From Clostridia bacterium (lineage in GTDB: Bacteria; Bacillota; Clostridia; UBA1381; UBA9506), in NCBI GenBank assembly GCA_017416985.1, contig JAFQAG010000249.1, positions 1 through 43,633 of the forward strand: a stretch of 43,633 nt of DNA, read 5' to 3'. The translations under genes were made by a program, and so were the position numbers. Below are positions 1 to 31,282 of this stretch, in pieces. Numbering within the stretch: position 1 is the stretch's first letter; each line of letters starts with the position of its first letter. A model generated the notes under the pieces. It was given only the letters and a program-made list of their open reading frames with translations, ran no database searches and was not told where the DNA came from.

Positions 1-142
1 ACGCATCAGACCAGACAGTACCCTCTTCCCACTTTTTATAAGCGGCTTTGCCGTCTGTTCCATCAACAGGAAGATATATAGAAAGATTTTTAGCAAGCTC
101 AGCAAAAACTGAACTCATCTTATCTAACGAACATTTACGCAT
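1..142 (-). CDS. AsrA/Flx-like iron-sulfur protein, N-terminal part (cut by window edge)
   Basis: An open frame begins at an ATG at 142 and runs off the left edge, giving 47 residues without a stop. The visible part (residues about 8-32) contains ELAKNLSIYLPVDG and AAYKKWEEG. This resembles the N-terminus of 4Fe-4S dicluster proteins of the anaerobic sulfite reductase A/FlxB type that accompany Hdr modules. The start overlaps the stop of the upstream gene by 8 bp, so translation is probably coupled. No cysteine cluster lies inside the window, so the iron-sulfur assignment rests on the N-terminal look and on context. An Flx-type subunit would pass electrons between NADH and the Hdr complex; that is inference. 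Confidence 0.55.
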   Translation of the reverse strand, partial: MRKCSLDKMSSVFAELAKNLSIYLPVDGTDGKAAYKKWEEGTVWSDA

Positions 143-1130
143 CAATATCCCCCCTGTCAAAAACCTCACCGGGTTCAACATCATCGGTGGTATAATTAAC
201 AAGCGGCGCTCTTTGTCCAACTTCGCTACCCGCCTGATATTCGCCGTAAAATTCGTTCATATCTTTAATAAATTTACGGTTTAAAAGATGGAGCGGAATA
301 TTCTGCGGACATACTCTTGAGCATTCGCCACAGTCTGTACATCTGCCTGCTACGTGATATGCACGTATAATGTGGAACATCTTTTCTTCAAAGCTGTTTG
401 CAGGAGATTTGTTTTCAACACCTGACTGGGGATTGTTAAACACGCACTTTTCACAAGTGCAAGCAGGGCAAACATCACGGCACGCATTACAACGAATGCA
501 ACGCGAAAGCTCATTCTGCCAGAAAGCAAATCTTTCATCAGGAGTCATAGCCTCTAACTTTTCAACCTCGTCAAAACGAGCAGACTCTAAAACCTCTCCC
601 TCTTCGCCCAAAAGCTCATCATATGCAACGTGCTTTTTGCTCTTGCAGTTTACGCATCTTTCTAAAAGCACATCTTTAGCATCTAACTCTATTGGCTTAT
701 CAGCATAAAGAGTTGTTACGGCAATTTTTTCGCCGCAGTCAATTTTAATTATACCGTCACCGCAAGCCACTTTTACTTTTTCAACATCTACCATACCTTC
801 GCATGGTATACCTACTGCATAAACCTTTTCGCGGTCAAAACGATGCTCGGTTAAAAGCTGATTAAAGCTATATGTGTCGCAAGGCTTTAAAAAAACTAAA
901 ATTTTACCCTCTGTTTTGCGGGTTTTTTCTATTAAATATTTAGAGAAGTTAGCACCGCAAAAATCATTCCATACAAAACCATCTTTAAGCTCTTCTTCAG
1001 TTTTGAACACAGCAGGAGTAATATCATAGTCAAACTCACCCTTGCTCCATCCTAAAACGCAGGATACTGTTCCATCTTTAAGCAGAGAAGCTGCTTTGTC
1101 AATTAATTGTGTTTGTGTTATCTTTTGCAT
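135..1130 (-). CDS. 4Fe-4S dicluster, FrhB/Flx-like electron-transfer subunit
   Basis: This is a 331-residue cytoplasmic protein. The N-terminal half (about residues 20-150, with ILVFLKPCDTYSF and VYAVGIPCEGM) resembles the F420-hydrogenase beta-subunit type of domain. The C-terminal half carries two ferredoxin-like clusters: CIRCNACRDVCPACTC near residue 213 and CTDCGECSRVCP near residue 263, plus CVNCKSKK in the linker. The start ATG follows GGAGGATCTGCG and overlaps the end of mvhD by 13 bp. Proteins of this shape sit beside HdrA-MvhD in anaerobes and are thought to feed NAD(P)H- or ferredoxin-derived electrons into Hdr. F420 itself is not implied in Clostridia. The subunit letter within the Flx scheme cannot be fixed from sequence. 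Confidence 0.75.
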   Translation of the reverse strand: MQKITQTQLIDKAASLLKDGTVSCVLGWSKGEFDYDITPAVFKTEEELKDGFVWNDFCGANFSKYLIEKTRKTEGKILVFLKPCDTYSFNQLLTEHRFDREKVYAVGIPCEGMVDVEKVKVACGDGIIKIDCGEKIAVTTLYADKPIELDAKDVLLERCVNCKSKKHVAYDELLGEEGEVLESARFDEVEKLEAMTPDERFAFWQNELSRCIRCNACRDVCPACTCEKCVFNNPQSGVENKSPANSFEEKMFHIIRAYHVAGRCTDCGECSRVCPQNIPLHLLNRKFIKDMNEFYGEYQAGSEVGQRAPLVNYTTDDVEPGEVFDRGDIDA

Positions 1131-1552
1131 CGCAGATCCTCCAATCTCTTGTTTTCTCCAAGTGCAGCTACTTTTTCAGCAAAATCGTTCATAGTAGCAG
1201 CAAATTTTGCACCCTCGGCAGCCGATACCCATTCAACACGGGTACGCTCTTTTTCAATACCAAGGTAATCAAGCATTGAAAACAGCATTGCCATACGACG
1301 ACGGGTGTAATAGTTACCCGAGGTATAGTGACAGTCACCTGGGTGACATCCGCAGATTATAACTCCGTCAGCTCCACGCTGAAAAGCTCGAAGTATAAAC
1401 ATAGGATTAACACGGCAGGAGCACGGAACACGAATGATTTTTACATCAGCAGGATAATTCAAACGATTGTTACCTGCAAGGTCTGCACCTGCATATGAGC
1501 ACCAGTTGCAGCAAAATGCCACAATCAGCGGTTTATATTCATTCATTTGCAT
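1118..1552 (-). CDS. mvhD: Hydrogenase iron-sulfur subunit, MvhD/FlpD family
   Basis: This 144-residue protein has the MvhD core: an early CCNWCSYAGAD motif, then RVPCSCRVNP and CGCHPGDCHY. Those cysteines would bind the [2Fe-2S] cluster that passes electrons to HdrA. I chose the ATG at 1552 because GGAGGTGG lies 7 bases upstream. An in-frame ATG at 1546 overlaps the hdrA stop as ATGA and is an alternative. A longer open frame reaches 1651 but lies inside hdrA. No hydrogenase large or small subunit follows. The electron donor is therefore more likely the Flx-like proteins downstream than a NiFe hydrogenase. Confidence 0.9.
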   Translation of the reverse strand: MQMNEYKPLIVAFCCNWCSYAGADLAGNNRLNYPADVKIIRVPCSCRVNPMFILRAFQRGADGVIICGCHPGDCHYTSGNYYTRRRMAMLFSMLDYLGIEKERTRVEWVSAAEGAKFAATMNDFAEKVAALGENKRLEDLRCKR

Positions 1553-3537
1553 ATAGCATCCACCTCCGCCATAATTTGTCCACTTGCAAAGCCGTGTAAG
1601 TCCATAGCACCTGATGGGCAGGCAACGGTACAAGCACCGCAACCCTGACATACTGCAGGATTTACAACAGCAATTCTTCTTACCAATGTTGTTCTGTCGG
1701 GCATACGGAATTCTTTATCCTCGTAGGTAATAGCACCATAAGGACAAACCCTTTCACACGATGAACAACCATTACACATAAGCTCGTTTGAATGAGCGAT
1801 ACAAGGGTTACCTGTAAGCTTATCTTTAGCTAAAAGACCAATAACCTTAGATGCCGCAGCACCAGCCTGAGAAACAGTTTCAGGAATATCTTTAGGTCCC
1901 TGACAAGCACCTGATAAGAACACACCAGCGGTCGGACTTTCTACCGGACGAAGCTTTGGATGCGCCTCGGTAAAGAAGTCATTTGTATCCATACTTGCTG
2001 TAAGCATTGTAGCAAGCGGTCTTGCCGATTTGTCTGGCTCGATAGCTGCTGCTAAAACAACCAAGTCAGCATCAATATGCAGCTGTTTGTTTTCTAAAAG
2101 GTCAGATGCCTGAACCTTTAGCTTATCGCCCTCGGGAACAACCTTGCCAACCATTCCCTTAACATAATGAACGCCATATTCTTCAACCGCACGGCGATAA
2201 AATTCATCAAAGTTTTTACCCGGAGTTCTTACGTCAATATAGAATACATAAACATCGGTATCCGGATATTTATCTCTTGTAAGCATTGCGTGCTTTGCAG
2301 TATACATACAGCAAATTTTTGAGCAGTATTCTTTGCCCTTTTCGGCACACGCATCACAACGAGAACCAACACACTGAACAAATACTATTGTGTGCGGATG
2401 CTTGCCGTCAGACGGACGGAGCAACTTACCGGCAGTAGGTCCTGCCGCATTTGTTAAGCGCTCAAACTCTAACGATGTGATAACATCTTTAGACTGGTTA
2501 TAAGCAAACTCGTCAAATTTATCCATACTAATCGGGTTAAAACCGGTTGCAACAACGATTGCACCATATTTTTCCTCGATGTATTCATCCTTTTGAGTGT
2601 AATCAATTGCGCCTGCTGCACAAACTCTTGCACAAAGACCGCACTTGCCGTTTTTAAGCATATTACAAGCGTTAGGGTCAATGGTTGCAACCTTAGGAAC
2701 AGCCTGAGCAAACGGAATATAGATTGCACTGCGGTTATCCATACCCAGATTAAATTCGTTAGGAACTTTTTTCATCGGGCATTTTTCAACACACGCACCG
2801 CAGCCTGTACAAATATCTTCTTTTACATAACGGGCATTCTTTTTAATGGTAACATCAAAATTACCAACAAAGCCCTTAACATCTGTAACCTCACTGTACG
2901 AGAAAATGCGTATTTTATCATTCTGAGCAACGTCAACCATTTTAGGTGTTAAAATACAAGCCGCACAGTCAAGTGTCGGGAAGGTTTTATCAAGCTGAGC
3001 CATTTTTCCGCCGATTGTAGGCTTTTTCTCTACAATGTCAACCGGGAAACCAGCATCTGCGATATCTAAAGCAGTCTGAATACCTGCAATACCACCACCG
3101 ATTACTAAAGCACGTTTAGTTACCGGAGATTCACCCGGTGTAAGCGGTGTGTTAAGGTTTACCTTTGCAACTGCTGCTTTACCTAAAATAATAGCCTTTT
3201 CGGTTCCGGTAGGAATATCTTTATGAACCCATGAGCATTGCTCACGGATGTTTGCAATTTCTACCATATACGGATTTAAGCCTGCTGCCTGAGCTGTTCT
3301 TCTGAATGTAGCCTCGTGCATACGAGGTGAACAAGAGCAGACAACAATTCCTGTAAGATTGTGTTCTTTAACGGCATTTATAATCATATCCTGACCCGCC
3401 TGAGAACACATATATTGATAGTTGGTGGAAAAGACTACTCCAGGCTCATTTTTAAGAGCATCTGAAACCGCCTGTACATCAACAGTACCAGCGATATTAC
3501 TTCCGCACCAACATACAAATACACCAATTCTTTGCAT
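1543..3537 (-). CDS. hdrA: Heterodisulfide reductase-like subunit A (flavin bifurcation core)
   Basis: This is a 664-residue HdrA. An N-terminal Cys-containing domain (CWCGSN, then CSCSPRMHE near residue 90) precedes the FAD dinucleotide fold at about 145-180 (VIGGGIAGIQTALDIADAGF) and GGKMAQLDKTFPTLDC. Ferredoxin-type clusters follow: CTGCGACVEKCP near 245, a CGLCARVC insert near 300, and two C-terminal clusters, CNGCSSCERVCPYGA and CQGCGACTVACPSGA. In methanogens and clostridial relatives HdrA holds the bifurcating FAD, splitting electron pairs between ferredoxin and a higher-potential acceptor at HdrB. GGAGGAAAGG precedes the ATG. It is a single-copy HdrA, not the duplicated form. The physiological acceptor is unknown here because methanogen CoM/CoB is not expected. 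Confidence 0.95.
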   Translation of the reverse strand: MQRIGVFVCWCGSNIAGTVDVQAVSDALKNEPGVVFSTNYQYMCSQAGQDMIINAVKEHNLTGIVVCSCSPRMHEATFRRTAQAAGLNPYMVEIANIREQCSWVHKDIPTGTEKAIILGKAAVAKVNLNTPLTPGESPVTKRALVIGGGIAGIQTALDIADAGFPVDIVEKKPTIGGKMAQLDKTFPTLDCAACILTPKMVDVAQNDKIRIFSYSEVTDVKGFVGNFDVTIKKNARYVKEDICTGCGACVEKCPMKKVPNEFNLGMDNRSAIYIPFAQAVPKVATIDPNACNMLKNGKCGLCARVCAAGAIDYTQKDEYIEEKYGAIVVATGFNPISMDKFDEFAYNQSKDVITSLEFERLTNAAGPTAGKLLRPSDGKHPHTIVFVQCVGSRCDACAEKGKEYCSKICCMYTAKHAMLTRDKYPDTDVYVFYIDVRTPGKNFDEFYRRAVEEYGVHYVKGMVGKVVPEGDKLKVQASDLLENKQLHIDADLVVLAAAIEPDKSARPLATMLTASMDTNDFFTEAHPKLRPVESPTAGVFLSGACQGPKDIPETVSQAGAAASKVIGLLAKDKLTGNPCIAHSNELMCNGCSSCERVCPYGAITYEDKEFRMPDRTTLVRRIAVVNPAVCQGCGACTVACPSGAMDLHGFASGQIMAEVDAICK

Positions 3538-3551
3538 TATTCCTTTCCTCC

Positions 3552-3938
3552 TTACTTACTATATTTTCTAAATGCGCTGACGATTAACTGCTGTGGAGTT
3601 TCATCATCAAGCATGTCAGGCACCGAATCTGCCTTTAAGTGATTTGCACCCTGCTTGCGCACAGCTGCAAGTCTTACTGCCTCGACCAGTTTTGCCGGCT
3701 CGACACCTCTTGGGCATCTGTCAACACAAGCAAAGCAGGTCAAGCATTTATACAGAGAATCTGAGTTAAGCAGGGGCTCGATATCTCCGTTTTCAACCAT
3801 ACTAACAAACTGATGCGGATGATATTCCATCTCGTCATATGCAGGGCAGGTAGCTGAGCACTTACCGCAGCGCATGCATTTTTTAGGATTAACTCCGCTC
3901 ATACGCAAAAGGTCTTCGTAAAGATACTTATTATTCAT
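3552..3938 (-). CDS. hdrC: Heterodisulfide reductase-like subunit C
   Basis: This is a short (128-residue) ferredoxin-like protein with two [4Fe-4S] motifs, CMRCGKCSATCP near residue 21 and CLTCFACVDRCP near residue 65, the normal HdrC layout. It links clusters in HdrA to the HdrB active site. The start follows GGAGGATACAA and lies 8 bp inside the end of hdrB, so the two are translationally coupled. The stop sits 14 bases before hdrA. Length and motifs match soluble HdrC; no membrane segment is seen. Confidence 0.92.
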   Translation of the reverse strand: MNNKYLYEDLLRMSGVNPKKCMRCGKCSATCPAYDEMEYHPHQFVSMVENGDIEPLLNSDSLYKCLTCFACVDRCPRGVEPAKLVEAVRLAAVRKQGANHLKADSVPDMLDDETPQQLIVSAFRKYSK

Positions 3939-4719
3939 TTGTATCCTCCTTTACGCCAAGTGCCTCTGCTAAAAGCTCGGTAAAATATACTACCGGAATA
4001 TCAGCACCGTTTTTAATAAGGTTATATTTGCAAAGCGGACAAGCAGTAATAATCATTTCTGCACCTGCTGCTTTTGCATTTTCTATAACTGCATTACTCT
4101 TTTTCTTAGCTAAATCAGGACTTTCCATAGCGATATATCCGCCACAGCATTCGTTGCGGTTTGCATATACTATCGCATCAGCACCGATTGCACGGATAAA
4201 ATCCTCCATAATGCTCGGATTTTCAGGGTCATCCATTTTCATAACACTGTTTGGTCTTAATAAAAGACAACCATAATATGCCGCTATTTTTTTGCCGGCA
4301 AGTTTGTTTACTACTTTTTCTTTAACTGCGTCAAATCCTACAACATCACGCAAAAGCTCAAGATAGTGATAAACCTGTGTTTCGCCGCTGTATGGCTCTT
4401 CGCCCATATATCTGTTTACTTTATCTGCAAACTCTTTATCTGTCTGCATTGCATGGTTTGTCTGCTTTATAACGTTGTGACACGCAGAACATACTGTAAC
4501 AAGCGGTTGTTCTTTGTTTTTTGCCGCTACAAGAGCACGAACTGAGGACAGCTTTGTAGCAACCTCGTCACGAGCGGTAGTAAACACACCGCCGCAACAC
4601 TGCCATTCTTCTATTTCTTCCAGAGTAACACCTAAAGCCTCGGCAGATTTTCTGGCATAATCATCAAGCTCTTTTGCCTTGTTCTTTAAGGTGCATCCTG
4701 GGAAATAAGCTACTTTCAT
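3931..4719 (-). CDS. hdrB: Heterodisulfide reductase-like subunit B (CCG-domain)
   Basis: This 262-residue protein has two CCG domains: CQ/CCGG at about residue 42 (EWQCCGGVFTTA) and NECCGGYIAMESPDLAKKK near 190, followed by ITACPLCKYNL. In HdrB such cysteine sets bind the unusual non-cubane [4Fe-4S] clusters that cleave a disulfide. In non-methanogens the substrate is unknown and may be a small-molecule or protein disulfide. A GGGAGGTAG ribosome site precedes the ATG. It lies 15 bases after fumarase in the same operon. Related CCG domains occur in thiol:fumarate reductase and lactate oxidation (LutA) proteins, which is notable beside fumarase and LDH. Confidence 0.93.
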   Translation of the reverse strand: MKVAYFPGCTLKNKAKELDDYARKSAEALGVTLEEIEEWQCCGGVFTTARDEVATKLSSVRALVAAKNKEQPLVTVCSACHNVIKQTNHAMQTDKEFADKVNRYMGEEPYSGETQVYHYLELLRDVVGFDAVKEKVVNKLAGKKIAAYYGCLLLRPNSVMKMDDPENPSIMEDFIRAIGADAIVYANRNECCGGYIAMESPDLAKKKSNAVIENAKAAGAEMIITACPLCKYNLIKNGADIPVVYFTELLAEALGVKEDTNE

Positions 4720-4734
4720 TTTACTACCTCCCGA

Positions 4735-6111
4735 TTAAACCATTTCTTCCGGATGGAACACTTCATCAAATTTTTCAGCTGTTAAAAAGCCCAGCTCAAC
4801 GCAAGCCTCTTTAAGTGATATATTATCCTTAAATGCTTTTTTAGCTGTTTTTGCAGCGTTTTCGTATCCGATATACGGATTGAGTGCTGTAACAAGCATT
4901 AAGGAATTATGCAGATTGTGATACATTTTTTCTTTGTTTGCGGTGATTCCTACTGCGCAATTTTTGTTAAACGAAACAATTGCCTCTGCTAAAAGTCTTG
5001 CAGACTGCAGGAAGTTATAAATGCAAACCGGCATAAATACGTTAAGCTCGAAGTTACCCTGAGATGCCGCCATAGAAACTGCAACATCGTTACCCATAAC
5101 CTGAACTGCAACCATAGTTACAGCCTCGCACTGTGTTGGGTTAACCTTACCCGGCATAATTGATGAGCCCGGCTCATTTTCAGGAATAAAGATTTCACCT
5201 AAACCATCACGTGGACCAGATGCAAGCCAACGGATGTCGTTTGCAATTTTCATCATATCGCAAGCTAATGCTTTAATTGCACCATGAGCAAAAACAAGCT
5301 CGTCTTTTGATGTTAATGCGTGGAATTTATTTTCAGCAGTTTTATATGATTTGCCTGTAATTGCCGCAATTTCTGCTGCAACGCTTTCTGAGAATCCTTT
5401 AGGAGCATTAAGACCTGTTCCTACTGCTGTACCGCCCAATGCTACCTCGTAAAGAGGCTCTAAAGATCTGCGGATAAGCTCAACGTCTTTTTCTAAGCTT
5501 GAACGCCAACCGCTGATTTCCTGACTGAATTTAATAGGAGTTGCATCCTGAAGATGTGTTCTTCCGCTCTTTACGATTCCTTCGTTTTCTTTTTCTAAGC
5601 GTTTAAAGGTTTCGATTAACATTTCTGCTGCAGGAATAAGCTTATCTTCTAAGATTAAAACTGCTGCAATGTGCATAGCAGTCGGAAAGGTATCGTTTGA
5701 AGACTGGCTCATATTCGAATCATCGTTCGGATGGAGCAGCTTTTTACCTAAAATCTCGTTACCGCGATTTGCAACAACCTCGTTTGCGTTCATATTAGAC
5801 TGTGTGCCAGAACCTGTCTGCCAAACAACCAACGGAAAATGATCATTAAGCTTTCCGCTCATAACCTCGTCACAAGCCGCAGATATTGCACCTAACTTTT
5901 CTTCCGTCATTTTTTCTGGGCGGAGCTTGTTATTAGCAATCGCCGCTGCTTTTTTTAATACTCCAAAAGCATGAATAATTTCACGGGGCATTGTTTCGAT
6001 GCCCACACCTATTTCAAAGTTTTCGTGACTTCTTTGGGTCTGCGCTGCCCAAAGACGGTCAGCAGGAACTTTTACCTCACCCATAGAATCGTGTTCTATA
6101 CGATAATCCAT
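4735..6111 (-). CDS. fumC: Fumarate hydratase, class II
   Basis: This 458-residue fumarase/aspartase-superfamily enzyme interconverts L-malate and fumarate. Signatures include SGTQSNMNANEV, GRTHLQDATPIKFSQE and the superfamily loop GSSIMPGKVNPTQCE with the catalytic serine. GTAVGTGLNAP favours fumarase, although aspartase is a close relative. I place the start at the ATG at 6111, with AAAGGG 8 bases upstream. A GTG three codons earlier (6120) overlaps that site. Class II enzymes need no iron-sulfur cluster. Flanked by an LDH/MDH-fold dehydrogenase and Hdr genes, it probably serves a malate-fumarate branch of fermentation. Confidence 0.93.
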   Translation of the reverse strand: MDYRIEHDSMGEVKVPADRLWAAQTQRSHENFEIGVGIETMPREIIHAFGVLKKAAAIANNKLRPEKMTEEKLGAISAACDEVMSGKLNDHFPLVVWQTGSGTQSNMNANEVVANRGNEILGKKLLHPNDDSNMSQSSNDTFPTAMHIAAVLILEDKLIPAAEMLIETFKRLEKENEGIVKSGRTHLQDATPIKFSQEISGWRSSLEKDVELIRRSLEPLYEVALGGTAVGTGLNAPKGFSESVAAEIAAITGKSYKTAENKFHALTSKDELVFAHGAIKALACDMMKIANDIRWLASGPRDGLGEIFIPENEPGSSIMPGKVNPTQCEAVTMVAVQVMGNDVAVSMAASQGNFELNVFMPVCIYNFLQSARLLAEAIVSFNKNCAVGITANKEKMYHNLHNSLMLVTALNPYIGYENAAKTAKKAFKDNISLKEACVELGFLTAEKFDEVFHPEEMV

Positions 6112-6132: not shown

Positions 6133-7074
6133 TTAAATCTTAATATTTCTCATTACTTCTTTTAAGCTTTCTGCGCTCTTGTGAAGGTCTTCAATTTCTT
6201 TATCATTTAAAGGAAGAACAATTTTGTTATGAACTCCGTTGCGACCTACAACATTTAAAAGACTTAAGCATACATCATCAATGCCGTATTCGCCGTGAAG
6301 CATTGTCGAAACAGTCATTGTTGTATCAATACCGCTAAGCAGGCATTTGCATATGTGACATACCGAAACAGATACCGCATAGAAGGTAGCACCTTTTCTC
6401 TGAATTACACGTGCACCGGATTTACGAACATAATTTTCAACCTCTTCTTTGTGAAGTTCAGGGAAGTTAGCAGACTTTAAAACGGATTTGCCATAATCCT
6501 CAACCGGAACGTTTGAAATGTTCGCAACTGACCATGGAACAAACGATGAATCGCCATGTTCACCCAAAACATATGCATGAACGTTCTGCTGGCTTACTGA
6601 ATAATATTCAGAAAGTCTTGAACGCAGACGTGCAGTATCTAAAATAGTACCCGAACCGATAATGCGTTCTTCAGGGATTCCTGAATATTTAGTAAACGCA
6701 TAAGTTAAAATATCAACCGGATTACTTACAATAACATAAGTTGCATCAGGAGCATATTTTACAATCTGCTCTGTAATAGATTTTAAGATATCAACATTGG
6801 TCTGTGCCAGGTCAAGTCTTGACTGACCTGCTTTTCTTGCTACACCCGATGTAATGACAACTATATCAGAGCCGGCAGCATCTTCATAAGTTCCTGCATA
6901 AATATTGCAAGGATTGCAAAAAGGTGTTCCCTGTCTGATGTCTAATGCCTCGCCCAATGCTTTTTCGTTGTTGATGTCAATCATTACAATTTCAGAAGCA
7001 ATGCCTTCAATTGTAAGTGTGTAAGCGATAGTAGAACCTACACTACCTGTTCCTATTACTGTAATTTTATTCAT
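6133..7074 (-). CDS. LDH-fold L-2-hydroxyacid dehydrogenase with MDH-like Arg specificity residue
   Basis: This is a 313-residue NAD-dependent lactate/malate dehydrogenase. The N-terminal GTGSVGST and Asp33 (MIDIN) fit an NAD-binding Rossmann fold. Catalytic parts are SRLDL (Arg86), NPVDILTY, LDTARLR and GEHGDS, which are LDH-like rather than MDH-like. The residue aligned with LDH Gln102 is Arg80 (SGVARKAGQSR), the arginine that selects oxaloacetate in malate dehydrogenases. Thr in KGATFYA is LDH-like. The start at 7074 is chosen over an upstream GTG/ATG extension because homology begins at MNKITV and GAAAGG lies upstream. Both pyruvate and oxaloacetate are possible substrates. Next to fumarase, a malate role is plausible. 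Confidence 0.85.
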   Translation of the reverse strand: MNKITVIGTGSVGSTIAYTLTIEGIASEIVMIDINNEKALGEALDIRQGTPFCNPCNIYAGTYEDAAGSDIVVITSGVARKAGQSRLDLAQTNVDILKSITEQIVKYAPDATYVIVSNPVDILTYAFTKYSGIPEERIIGSGTILDTARLRSRLSEYYSVSQQNVHAYVLGEHGDSSFVPWSVANISNVPVEDYGKSVLKSANFPELHKEEVENYVRKSGARVIQRKGATFYAVSVSVCHICKCLLSGIDTTMTVSTMLHGEYGIDDVCLSLLNVVGRNGVHNKIVLPLNDKEIEDLHKSAESLKEVMRNIKI

Positions 7075-7156: not shown

Positions 7157-7396
7157 TTACAGTTTTGCCTTTATTTCTTTTTCGAAAAACTCGTTCACGG
7201 TTTCGGGAGTTACTGAAAAAACTTTATCTTCAATTGAAACAGAAACCCCGTCCTGACATCTGCCCATACAAAATGCTGCACATAAATTAATTTTTTCACC
7301 AAGACCGCTTTGTTCTGACAAAGCTTTCAGGTCTTCCAGCACGTGCTTAGAACCTTTTAAATGACAAGCACTTCCTATGCATACCGAAACCTTCAT
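7157..7396 (-). CDS. Thioredoxin-like [2Fe-2S] ferredoxin (NuoE C-terminal type)
   Basis: This is a 79-residue protein. Cys6 and Cys11 (CIGSACHLKGS) and the CAAFCMGRC segment (Cys39, Cys43, Cys47) give the C-x4-C plus C-x3-C ligand pattern of NuoE/HydA-type [2Fe-2S] thioredoxin-fold domains. The ATG at 7396 has GGAG 10 bases upstream, which decides the start; the open frame extends upstream into the promoter. It is the first gene of the operon and likely acts as a small electron carrier or NADH-side partner of the Hdr/Flx proteins. As a lone domain without NuoF, its partner is not identifiable here. Confidence 0.85.
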   Translation of the reverse strand: MKVSVCIGSACHLKGSKHVLEDLKALSEQSGLGEKINLCAAFCMGRCQDGVSVSIEDKVFSVTPETVNEFFEKEIKAKL

Positions 7397-7435
7397 TTTT
7401 AAACGACTCCTTTCGTTTTTTGATATATAATCACA

Positions 7436-7474: not shown

Positions 7475-7525
7475 CCCCTAATATACAAAATAATATAAAT
7501 TTTTATATTTTTTTATTAAAAAAGG

Positions 7526-7551
7526 CTGCTATGCAAAAATTGGCATAGCAG
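7526..7551 (-). terminator. Terminator of the ABC importer operon
   Basis: CTGCTATGC (7526-7534) pairs with GCATAGCAG (7543-7551) as a 9-bp stem with an 8-base loop. On the minus strand it is followed by CCTTTTTT, directly downstream of the ATPase gene. Confidence 0.88.
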
Positions 7552-7560
7552 TCCTGTTTT

Positions 7561-30159: not shown

Positions 30160-31282
30160 ATGATTGAATTCGACCAATATCGTCTGGATTTAGACGCTAT
30201 GAAGAAGGATATTATTGAATTGAGGGATTCACTTTGAATTGCCCAAGACAGAATCTAAAATAGCTGAGCTTGAGGCAAAATCATCCGAAAGCGGTTTTTG
30301 GGATGATATGGAAAATTCCCAGAAAGTATTGCAGGAGTTAAAGCAATTAAAGGCAAAGGTTGAGCGCTATACTGCCCTTTCTTCTCAATGGGAGGATATG
30401 GTAACCTTAGTTGAGCTTGCAATCGAGGCAGAAGACGAATCAATGCTTGACGAAGTCGCAGAGGGCTATACCCTACTAACTTCAGATTTAGAAAGTATGA
30501 AGCTCGAAACTCTGCTTTCAGGAAAATATGATAAAAACAATGCCATTATTTCGCTGCACCCGGGCGCAGGCGGAACAGAGGCTCAGGATTGGGCACAAAT
30601 GCTTTTCCGTATGTATCAGATGTGGGCAGAACGTCGTGGCTTTAGCGTTGAAACCTTAGACTACTTAGCGGGCGACGAGGCAGGAATTAAAAGTGTAACT
30701 ATTCTTATTAAGGGCGAAAATGCCTACGGATACGCCAAAAGCGAAAAGGGCGTTCACCGTCTGGTAAGAATTTCTCCATTTGACTCATCAGGCAGACGAC
30801 ATACCTCGTTTGCATCGGTTGATGTAATGCCCGAAATTGACGATGATATCGAGGTCCACATTAATCCCGAAGATTTAAAGGTAGACACCTTCCGCGCAAG
30901 CGGTGCAGGCGGTCAGCACGTAAACAAAACCGATTCGGCAATACGTATTACACATATCCCCACAGGTGTTGTTGTTGCGTGTCAGACTGAACGTTCACAG
31001 CATCAGAACAGAGATAATGCTATGAAAATGCTTACTGCTAAACTTTTTGAGATGGCGGAACGTGAACAAAAAGAAAAAATCGAAGACTTAAAAGGCGATA
31101 TGAAAGACATTGCATGGGGCAGCCAGATTCGCTCTTACGTGTTCCATCCATATAATATGGTTAAAGACCACCGTACAAACTTTGAAGTTGGTAACATCGG
31201 TGCTGTAATGGATGGCGACCTTGATGGTTTTGTAAATGCGTACTTAAAGGCATCGAGTATGGGAACATTAAATTTAAAATAA
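30160..31282 (+). CDS. prfB: Peptide chain release factor 2, programmed +1 frameshift
   Basis: RF2 (about 373 residues) recognises UGA and UAA stops. Translation starts at ATG 30160 (AAGGATGTG upstream) and reads 25 codons to CTT, then meets an in-frame TGA at 30235-30237. A +1 slip at CTT-T continues as GAA from 30236 through 31282. The slip site CTTTGA is preceded by TTGAGGGA, the Shine-Dalgarno-like stimulator. Later motifs include SPFDSSGRRHTSF (SPF stop-recognition tripeptide) and the GGQ catalytic motif in GAGGQHVNKTDSA. The frameshift is autoregulatory: low RF2 favours slippage. It is not a broken gene. Confidence 0.95.

Follow-up and report, generated by a model that had tools for sequence, protein, structure and literature searches.

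The question raised by this locus is whether a gene recognized by sequence models as a lactate dehydrogenase (LDH) encodes a malate dehydrogenase (MDH). The gene lies on the minus strand of the window, which is the whole 43,633 nucleotide stretch of Clostridia DNA analyzed here. The following features of the gene are used below:

6133..7074, minus strand: LDH/MDH-family protein of 313 aa, predicted to be an NADH-dependent malate dehydrogenase (Ldh_1_N and Ldh_1_C)
6835..6837, minus strand: codon AGA of Arg80, LDH position 102 (codon read and alignment)
6415..6417, minus strand: codon GGT of Gly220, the second specificity residue of malate type, at LDH position 236 (codon read and alignment columns)

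The enzyme passes the L-LDH equivalog model TIGR01771 (344.5 bits against a cut-off of 303.55) and misses TIGR01763, the model for canonical MalDH type 3 (233.5 bits against a cut-off of 351.85). The "lactate dehydrogenase" of the sequence models is nevertheless almost certainly a malate dehydrogenase, because it carries a malate-type residue at a key specificity position and because its gene heads a succinate operon.

Specificity residues of the enzyme and its orthologs

On the minus strand the letters 6840-6832 are gca-aga-aaa, and the AGA at 6837-6835 specifies residue 80 counted from the ATG at 7074. The segment SGVARKAGQSR aligns without gaps to AGANQKPGETR of the Bacillus subtilis LDH, which places Arg80 opposite Gln102, and Arg80 also aligns with an arginine of the Clostridium thermocellum protein in PDB entry 1y6j. 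The first-pass annotation had placed an arginine at the Gln102 position, and both its coordinates and the residue are correct. It had also considered all other marks of the protein to be LDH-like. This is the case for GEHGDS (Glu194), GSGT, Thr246, and Val/Ile250, but not for Gly220 (position 236), which is malate-type, or for Gln at position 68 and Ser at position 199, which are not LDH-type.

A search of 100 relatives identified 20 further orthologs with at least 57% identity, separate from paralogs at approximately 38-46%, and a scan of named genomes added 80 more. The named carriers include Anaeromassilibacillus senegalensis, Ruminococcus flavefaciens MAGs, Petroclostridium sp. X23, Neobittarella massiliensis, Faecalicatena contorta, and Treponema sp. 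Marseille-Q4130. Arg102 was found in 100/100 ortholog loci, with some genomes entered under two handles (e.g., L038/L121, L039/L123, L040/L122, and L042/L138), and is a fixed trait and not a chance variant. The paralogs within the order are about 42% identical and mostly carry Gln102. Four genomes (G053, G038, G092, and G008) hold the Arg102 gene together with a separate Gln102 paralog, as expected if malate and lactate are divided between the two genes. At L179 a second LDH-family gene (3682-4641, plus strand) is located near the ortholog; it reads AGAPPKPGQSR with a proline at position 102.

Residues were compared directly between 40 orthologs, 36 LDHs grouped by having Gln102, and 15 canonical MDHs. 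Nineteen alignment columns clearly split LDH from MDH; the clade is LDH-like in 10 of these (including Thr143, Glu194, and Thr246), MDH-like in five, and neither in four. Position 236 is among the sites that were altered in the classic work on redesigning LDH specificity. It is Gly in 40/40 orthologs, in 5/5 members of a malic-enzyme-linked group and in 15/15 canonical MDHs, while it is Ala in 35/36 Gln102 LDHs. Among the orthologs from named genomes Gly236 was found in 79/80, the remaining one being unread. Position 68 is Gln in 40/40 orthologs (His in LDH), and position 199 is Ser in 37/40 (Glu, i.e., acidic, in LDH). No variation was seen at the catalytic residues Asp168, Arg171, His195, and Arg109 or at the NAD-type Asp.

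The clade fits neither canonical type. Of the L-LDH features it has Thr246 (40/40 orthologs) and lacks Gln102, His68, and the acidic residue 199; of the MalDH type 3 features it has Arg102, while the protein of the window has Ser, Thr, and Val in place of Met199, Ala/Ser246, and Pro250. The combination of Arg102, Gly236, and Gln68 with Thr246, Glu194, and Val250 gives it a mixed signature like that of the intermediate group of Brochier-Armanet and Madern (2021), which includes enzymes of Archaeoglobus fulgidus and Ignicoccus islandicus and likewise joins Arg102 to Thr246 (PMC9486893). The two solved enzymes of the intermediate group have His68 and Pro250 (PMC9486893), whereas the protein of the window has Gln68 and Val250. 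The engineered Gln102Arg LDH of Geobacillus stearothermophilus (Wilks, 1988), as summarized in PMC3268733, has the same residue at the same position of an LDH scaffold; compared to that mutant, the clade is natural, has Arg102 throughout, and adds Gly236 and further changes.

Mixed-type malate dehydrogenases with Arg102 on an LDH-like scaffold are already known, and Ccel_0137 is a precedent with measured activity. Ccel_0137 (Arg81) provides the main malate dehydrogenase activity of Clostridium cellulolyticum, and its disruption lowers that activity, while Ccel_2485 (Gln86) is the LDH of the organism (PMC3268733). Ccel_0137 adjoins malic enzyme and matches Cthe_0345 (PMC3268733). Both share the LDH-like scaffold with Arg102 but form a branch separate from the clade, at about 43% identity, and adjoin malic enzyme, whereas the gene of the clade belongs to a fumarase/Hdr/fumarate reductase operon. 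The 1y6j protein shares the pattern of Arg102, Gly236, Thr246, and Ile250 with the clade. It groups with Arg102 genes of relatives, two of which (L183 and L187) have malic enzyme as their downstream neighbor. Its Arg102 and its place among genes that adjoin malic enzyme make it probable that 1y6j is Cthe_0345.

The operon in the window and in relatives

The content and order of the cluster were read directly from the window. The fumarase reported next to the gene by the first-pass annotation is indeed directly downstream of it in the same operon. On the minus strand the presumably cotranscribed genes run NuoE-like, the enzyme, FumC, HdrB, HdrC, HdrA, MvhD, Flx 4Fe-4S, and FlxB-like, where the contig ends:

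7446..7474, minus strand: promoter-like TTGAAA-17-TATAAT upstream of the operon (consensus scan; counts near the shuffled expectation)
7157..7402, minus strand: NuoE-like thioredoxin-fold [2Fe-2S] protein (PF01257)
4735..6111, minus strand: class II fumarase FumC (TIGR00979, 710.6 bits against a cut-off of 664.75)
3931..4719, minus strand: HdrB-like CCG-domain subunit (PF02754; best NCBIfam match TIGR03288, under its cut-off)
3552..3938, minus strand: HdrC-like 4Fe-4S subunit (TIGR03290, under its cut-off; Fer4_8)
1543..3537, minus strand: HdrA-like flavoprotein with 4Fe-4S clusters (NF040770 HdrA2, 783.5 bits, under its cut-off)
1118..1564, minus strand: MvhD/FlxD-like subunit (PF02662 FlpD, 188 bits)
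135..1130, minus strand: Flx-type 4Fe-4S subunit in FlxC-like position (Fer4_8; operon position conserved in relatives)
2..142, minus strand: FlxB/AsrA-like subunit, first 47 codons, cut by the contig end (53% identity to FlxB of a relative)

The start codon of the NuoE-like gene was taken arbitrarily; MKVSV has its ATG two codons further in. A terminator-like hairpin is located at 7524-7553, with the promoter-like site just inside it. Elsewhere in the window (30161-30240, plus strand) prfB, encoding release factor 2, follows secA and has the usual in-frame TGA roughly 25 codons in (ctt tga a), ahead of the main frame, which is the known programmed frameshift.

In relatives the cluster continues with FlxB, FlxA, the iron-sulfur protein and the flavoprotein of a fumarate reductase, and a permease. 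The best match of the relatives' flavoprotein is TfrA at 338.6 bits, under the cut-off. In the present genome the operon is divided between two contigs, C238 and C249. The two pieces probably make up a complete operon interrupted by an assembly gap, since C249 ends inside FlxA and also carries FrdB, FrdA, and an Asp-Al_Ex permease.

Among the 95 ortholog loci with 900 or more bases downstream, the next gene was FumC in 60 and HdrB in 16, i.e., 76/95 in total, counts that are not independent because of shared ancestry. Neither gene was found next to any of 44 paralog or canonical MDH loci. The 19 evaluable loci without FumC or HdrB next door include those of R. flavefaciens MAGs; in one of these (L137) genes resembling the NfnAB transhydrogenase and NuoE/NuoF-type genes were seen by eye after the ortholog, with no fumarase there.

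The same malate dehydrogenase-fumarase-Hdr cluster was found in a Treponema isolate genome and a Treponemataceae MAG (L158 and L163), and its sharing between clostridia and spirochaetes suggests horizontal transfer. A clostridial copy of the gene with fumarase was also present on a contig filed under an archaeal Methanocorpusculum genome (L130); this contig is probably wrongly binned.

Apart from its malate dehydrogenase, the cluster corresponds to the "succinate operon" of the succinate producer Pseudoclostridium thermosuccinogenes, in which fumarate hydratase and fumarate reductase are combined with Flx-Hdr and a putative succinate transporter and whose expression rises approximately 4-fold under CO2 limitation (PMC7282089). 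In that organism GTP-PEPCK supplies oxaloacetate, and a coupling of fumarate reduction to ferredoxin has been proposed (PMC7282089). All four parts lie in one cluster in the relatives and are split between C238 and C249 here, and GTP-PEPCK is present in the genome as well. The clusters differ in that a malate dehydrogenase, often together with the NuoE-like gene, heads the one described here, while the P. thermosuccinogenes operon is listed from fumarase on. As far as the literature consulted shows, a known kind of intermediate enzyme and a known kind of operon occur here in a new combination.

Ancestry of Arg102

The first-pass annotation had proposed a malate dehydrogenase re-specialized on an LDH scaffold and called for a phylogeny of the superfamily. 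In a careful tree with the columns around position 102 masked, the clade formed one group (100/100). Relative to canonical MDH (MalDH type 3) this group lies, with full support, on the side of the LDHs. A change from Gln back to Arg did not find support. The quick and the careful tree, both masked in the 102 region, disagree at the base, and the AU tests rejected no arrangement tried: p-AU was 0.332 for all Gln102 rows as one clade, 0.327 for the clade together with the malic-enzyme group, and 0.569, in a quick tree, for the clade with clostridial Gln102 LDHs.

In the published phylogeny, such Arg102 enzymes form an intermediate group from which LDHs arose, and Gln102 arose once, on the LDH stem (PMC9486893). 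On that view the Arg102 of the clade was kept and not regained. A true reversal, in which the clade arose within Gln102 LDHs and regained Arg102, would concern history only and is compatible with a malate dehydrogenase function. It would agree with the nesting among clostridial Gln102 LDHs (p-AU 0.569, quick tree) and with the careful tree, where the Gln102 LDHs fall into more than one group. However, a single Gln102 clade was likewise not rejected (p-AU 0.332) and was recovered in wider quick trees (93), Gly236 and Gln68 would also have to be restored, and the published phylogeny has one origin of Gln102 from Arg102 intermediates (PMC9486893). We consider a reversal in this clade unlikely. 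Other families of the phylum contribute two long-branch Arg102 proteins (L095 in G154 and L092 in G195); L095 was placed among Gln102 LDHs and may represent a real Gln-to-Arg reversal.

Predicted function and its alternatives

We find it highly probable from the sequence that the enzyme is an intermediate-type, NADH-dependent malate dehydrogenase reducing oxaloacetate to malate for succinate formation. A malate dehydrogenase on an LDH scaffold, as first suggested, is well supported by the two malate-type residues, the operon, GTP-PEPCK, and the finding of no second Ldh_1 gene above the cut-off in the genome; that it was re-specialized is not supported. Neither malic enzyme nor ATP-PEPCK was detected in the genome; such absences carry little weight because the genome is 78% complete. 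With Arg102 and Gly236 on an LDH-like scaffold, Arg80, located on the mobile loop at the site of the LDH Gln, would hold the second carboxylate of oxaloacetate. Oxaloacetate would be supplied by GTP-PEPCK and reduced to malate by the enzyme, FumC of the same operon would convert malate to fumarate, and the fumarate reductase pair with a putative FlxABCD-HdrABC complex would reduce fumarate to succinate. This last step is possibly coupled to ferredoxin reduction, and the Asp-Al_Ex permease may export the succinate.

It has been stated that Thr246 disfavors oxaloacetate, and intermediate enzymes with Thr246 include users of both oxaloacetate and pyruvate (PMC9486893). Since the clade keeps Thr246, a side activity on pyruvate is possible by analogy. 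A dual-function enzyme, using both substrates at useful rates and serving as the only malate and lactate dehydrogenase of the cell, is rather improbable. It would be in line with Thr246 in all 40 orthologs, the LDH-like Val/Ile250, the published dual users, the lack of another Ldh_1 gene in this 78% complete genome, and the overlapping specificity that Li et al. suggest for both C. cellulolyticum enzymes (PMC3268733). This is countered by the invariance of Arg102 and Gly236, by Ser at position 199 where LDH is acidic for charge balance, by an operon content confined to C4 acids, and by the separate Gln102 paralog that several relatives retain.

That the enzyme is a lactate dehydrogenase in spite of Arg102 appears very improbable. 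The match to TIGR01771 and the nearest solved structures, all named L-lactate dehydrogenase, would favor it, but positions 102 and 236 are both malate-type and the operon context argues against it. Moreover, the LDH name of the second-best solved match, 1y6j, is unreliable because this protein itself has Arg102 and groups with genes beside malic enzyme. Arg102 could in principle also pair with the second acidic group of substrates other than oxaloacetate, for example 2-oxoglutarate or sulfopyruvate; a reductase for such a 2-oxo dicarboxylate is hardly to be expected here, as the fumarase and fumarate reductase of the same operon point to malate.

Altogether, these observations favor an intermediate-type malate dehydrogenase. 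More tentatively, many Clostridia and some Treponema could have a single transcription unit that covers all steps from oxaloacetate to the export of succinate. Within it, a soluble Flx-Hdr fumarate reductase would bifurcate NADH electrons to fumarate and ferredoxin, and a dedicated intermediate-type malate dehydrogenase would have coevolved with it. Because the NCBI model that the enzyme passes is named L-lactate dehydrogenase, many gut Clostridia may be predicted to make lactate although their gene more likely serves succinate formation. The clade provides a large natural set of Arg102 plus Thr246 enzymes for studying the divergence of malate and lactate dehydrogenases, and the operon flags candidates for a putative ferredoxin-coupled fumarate reductase.
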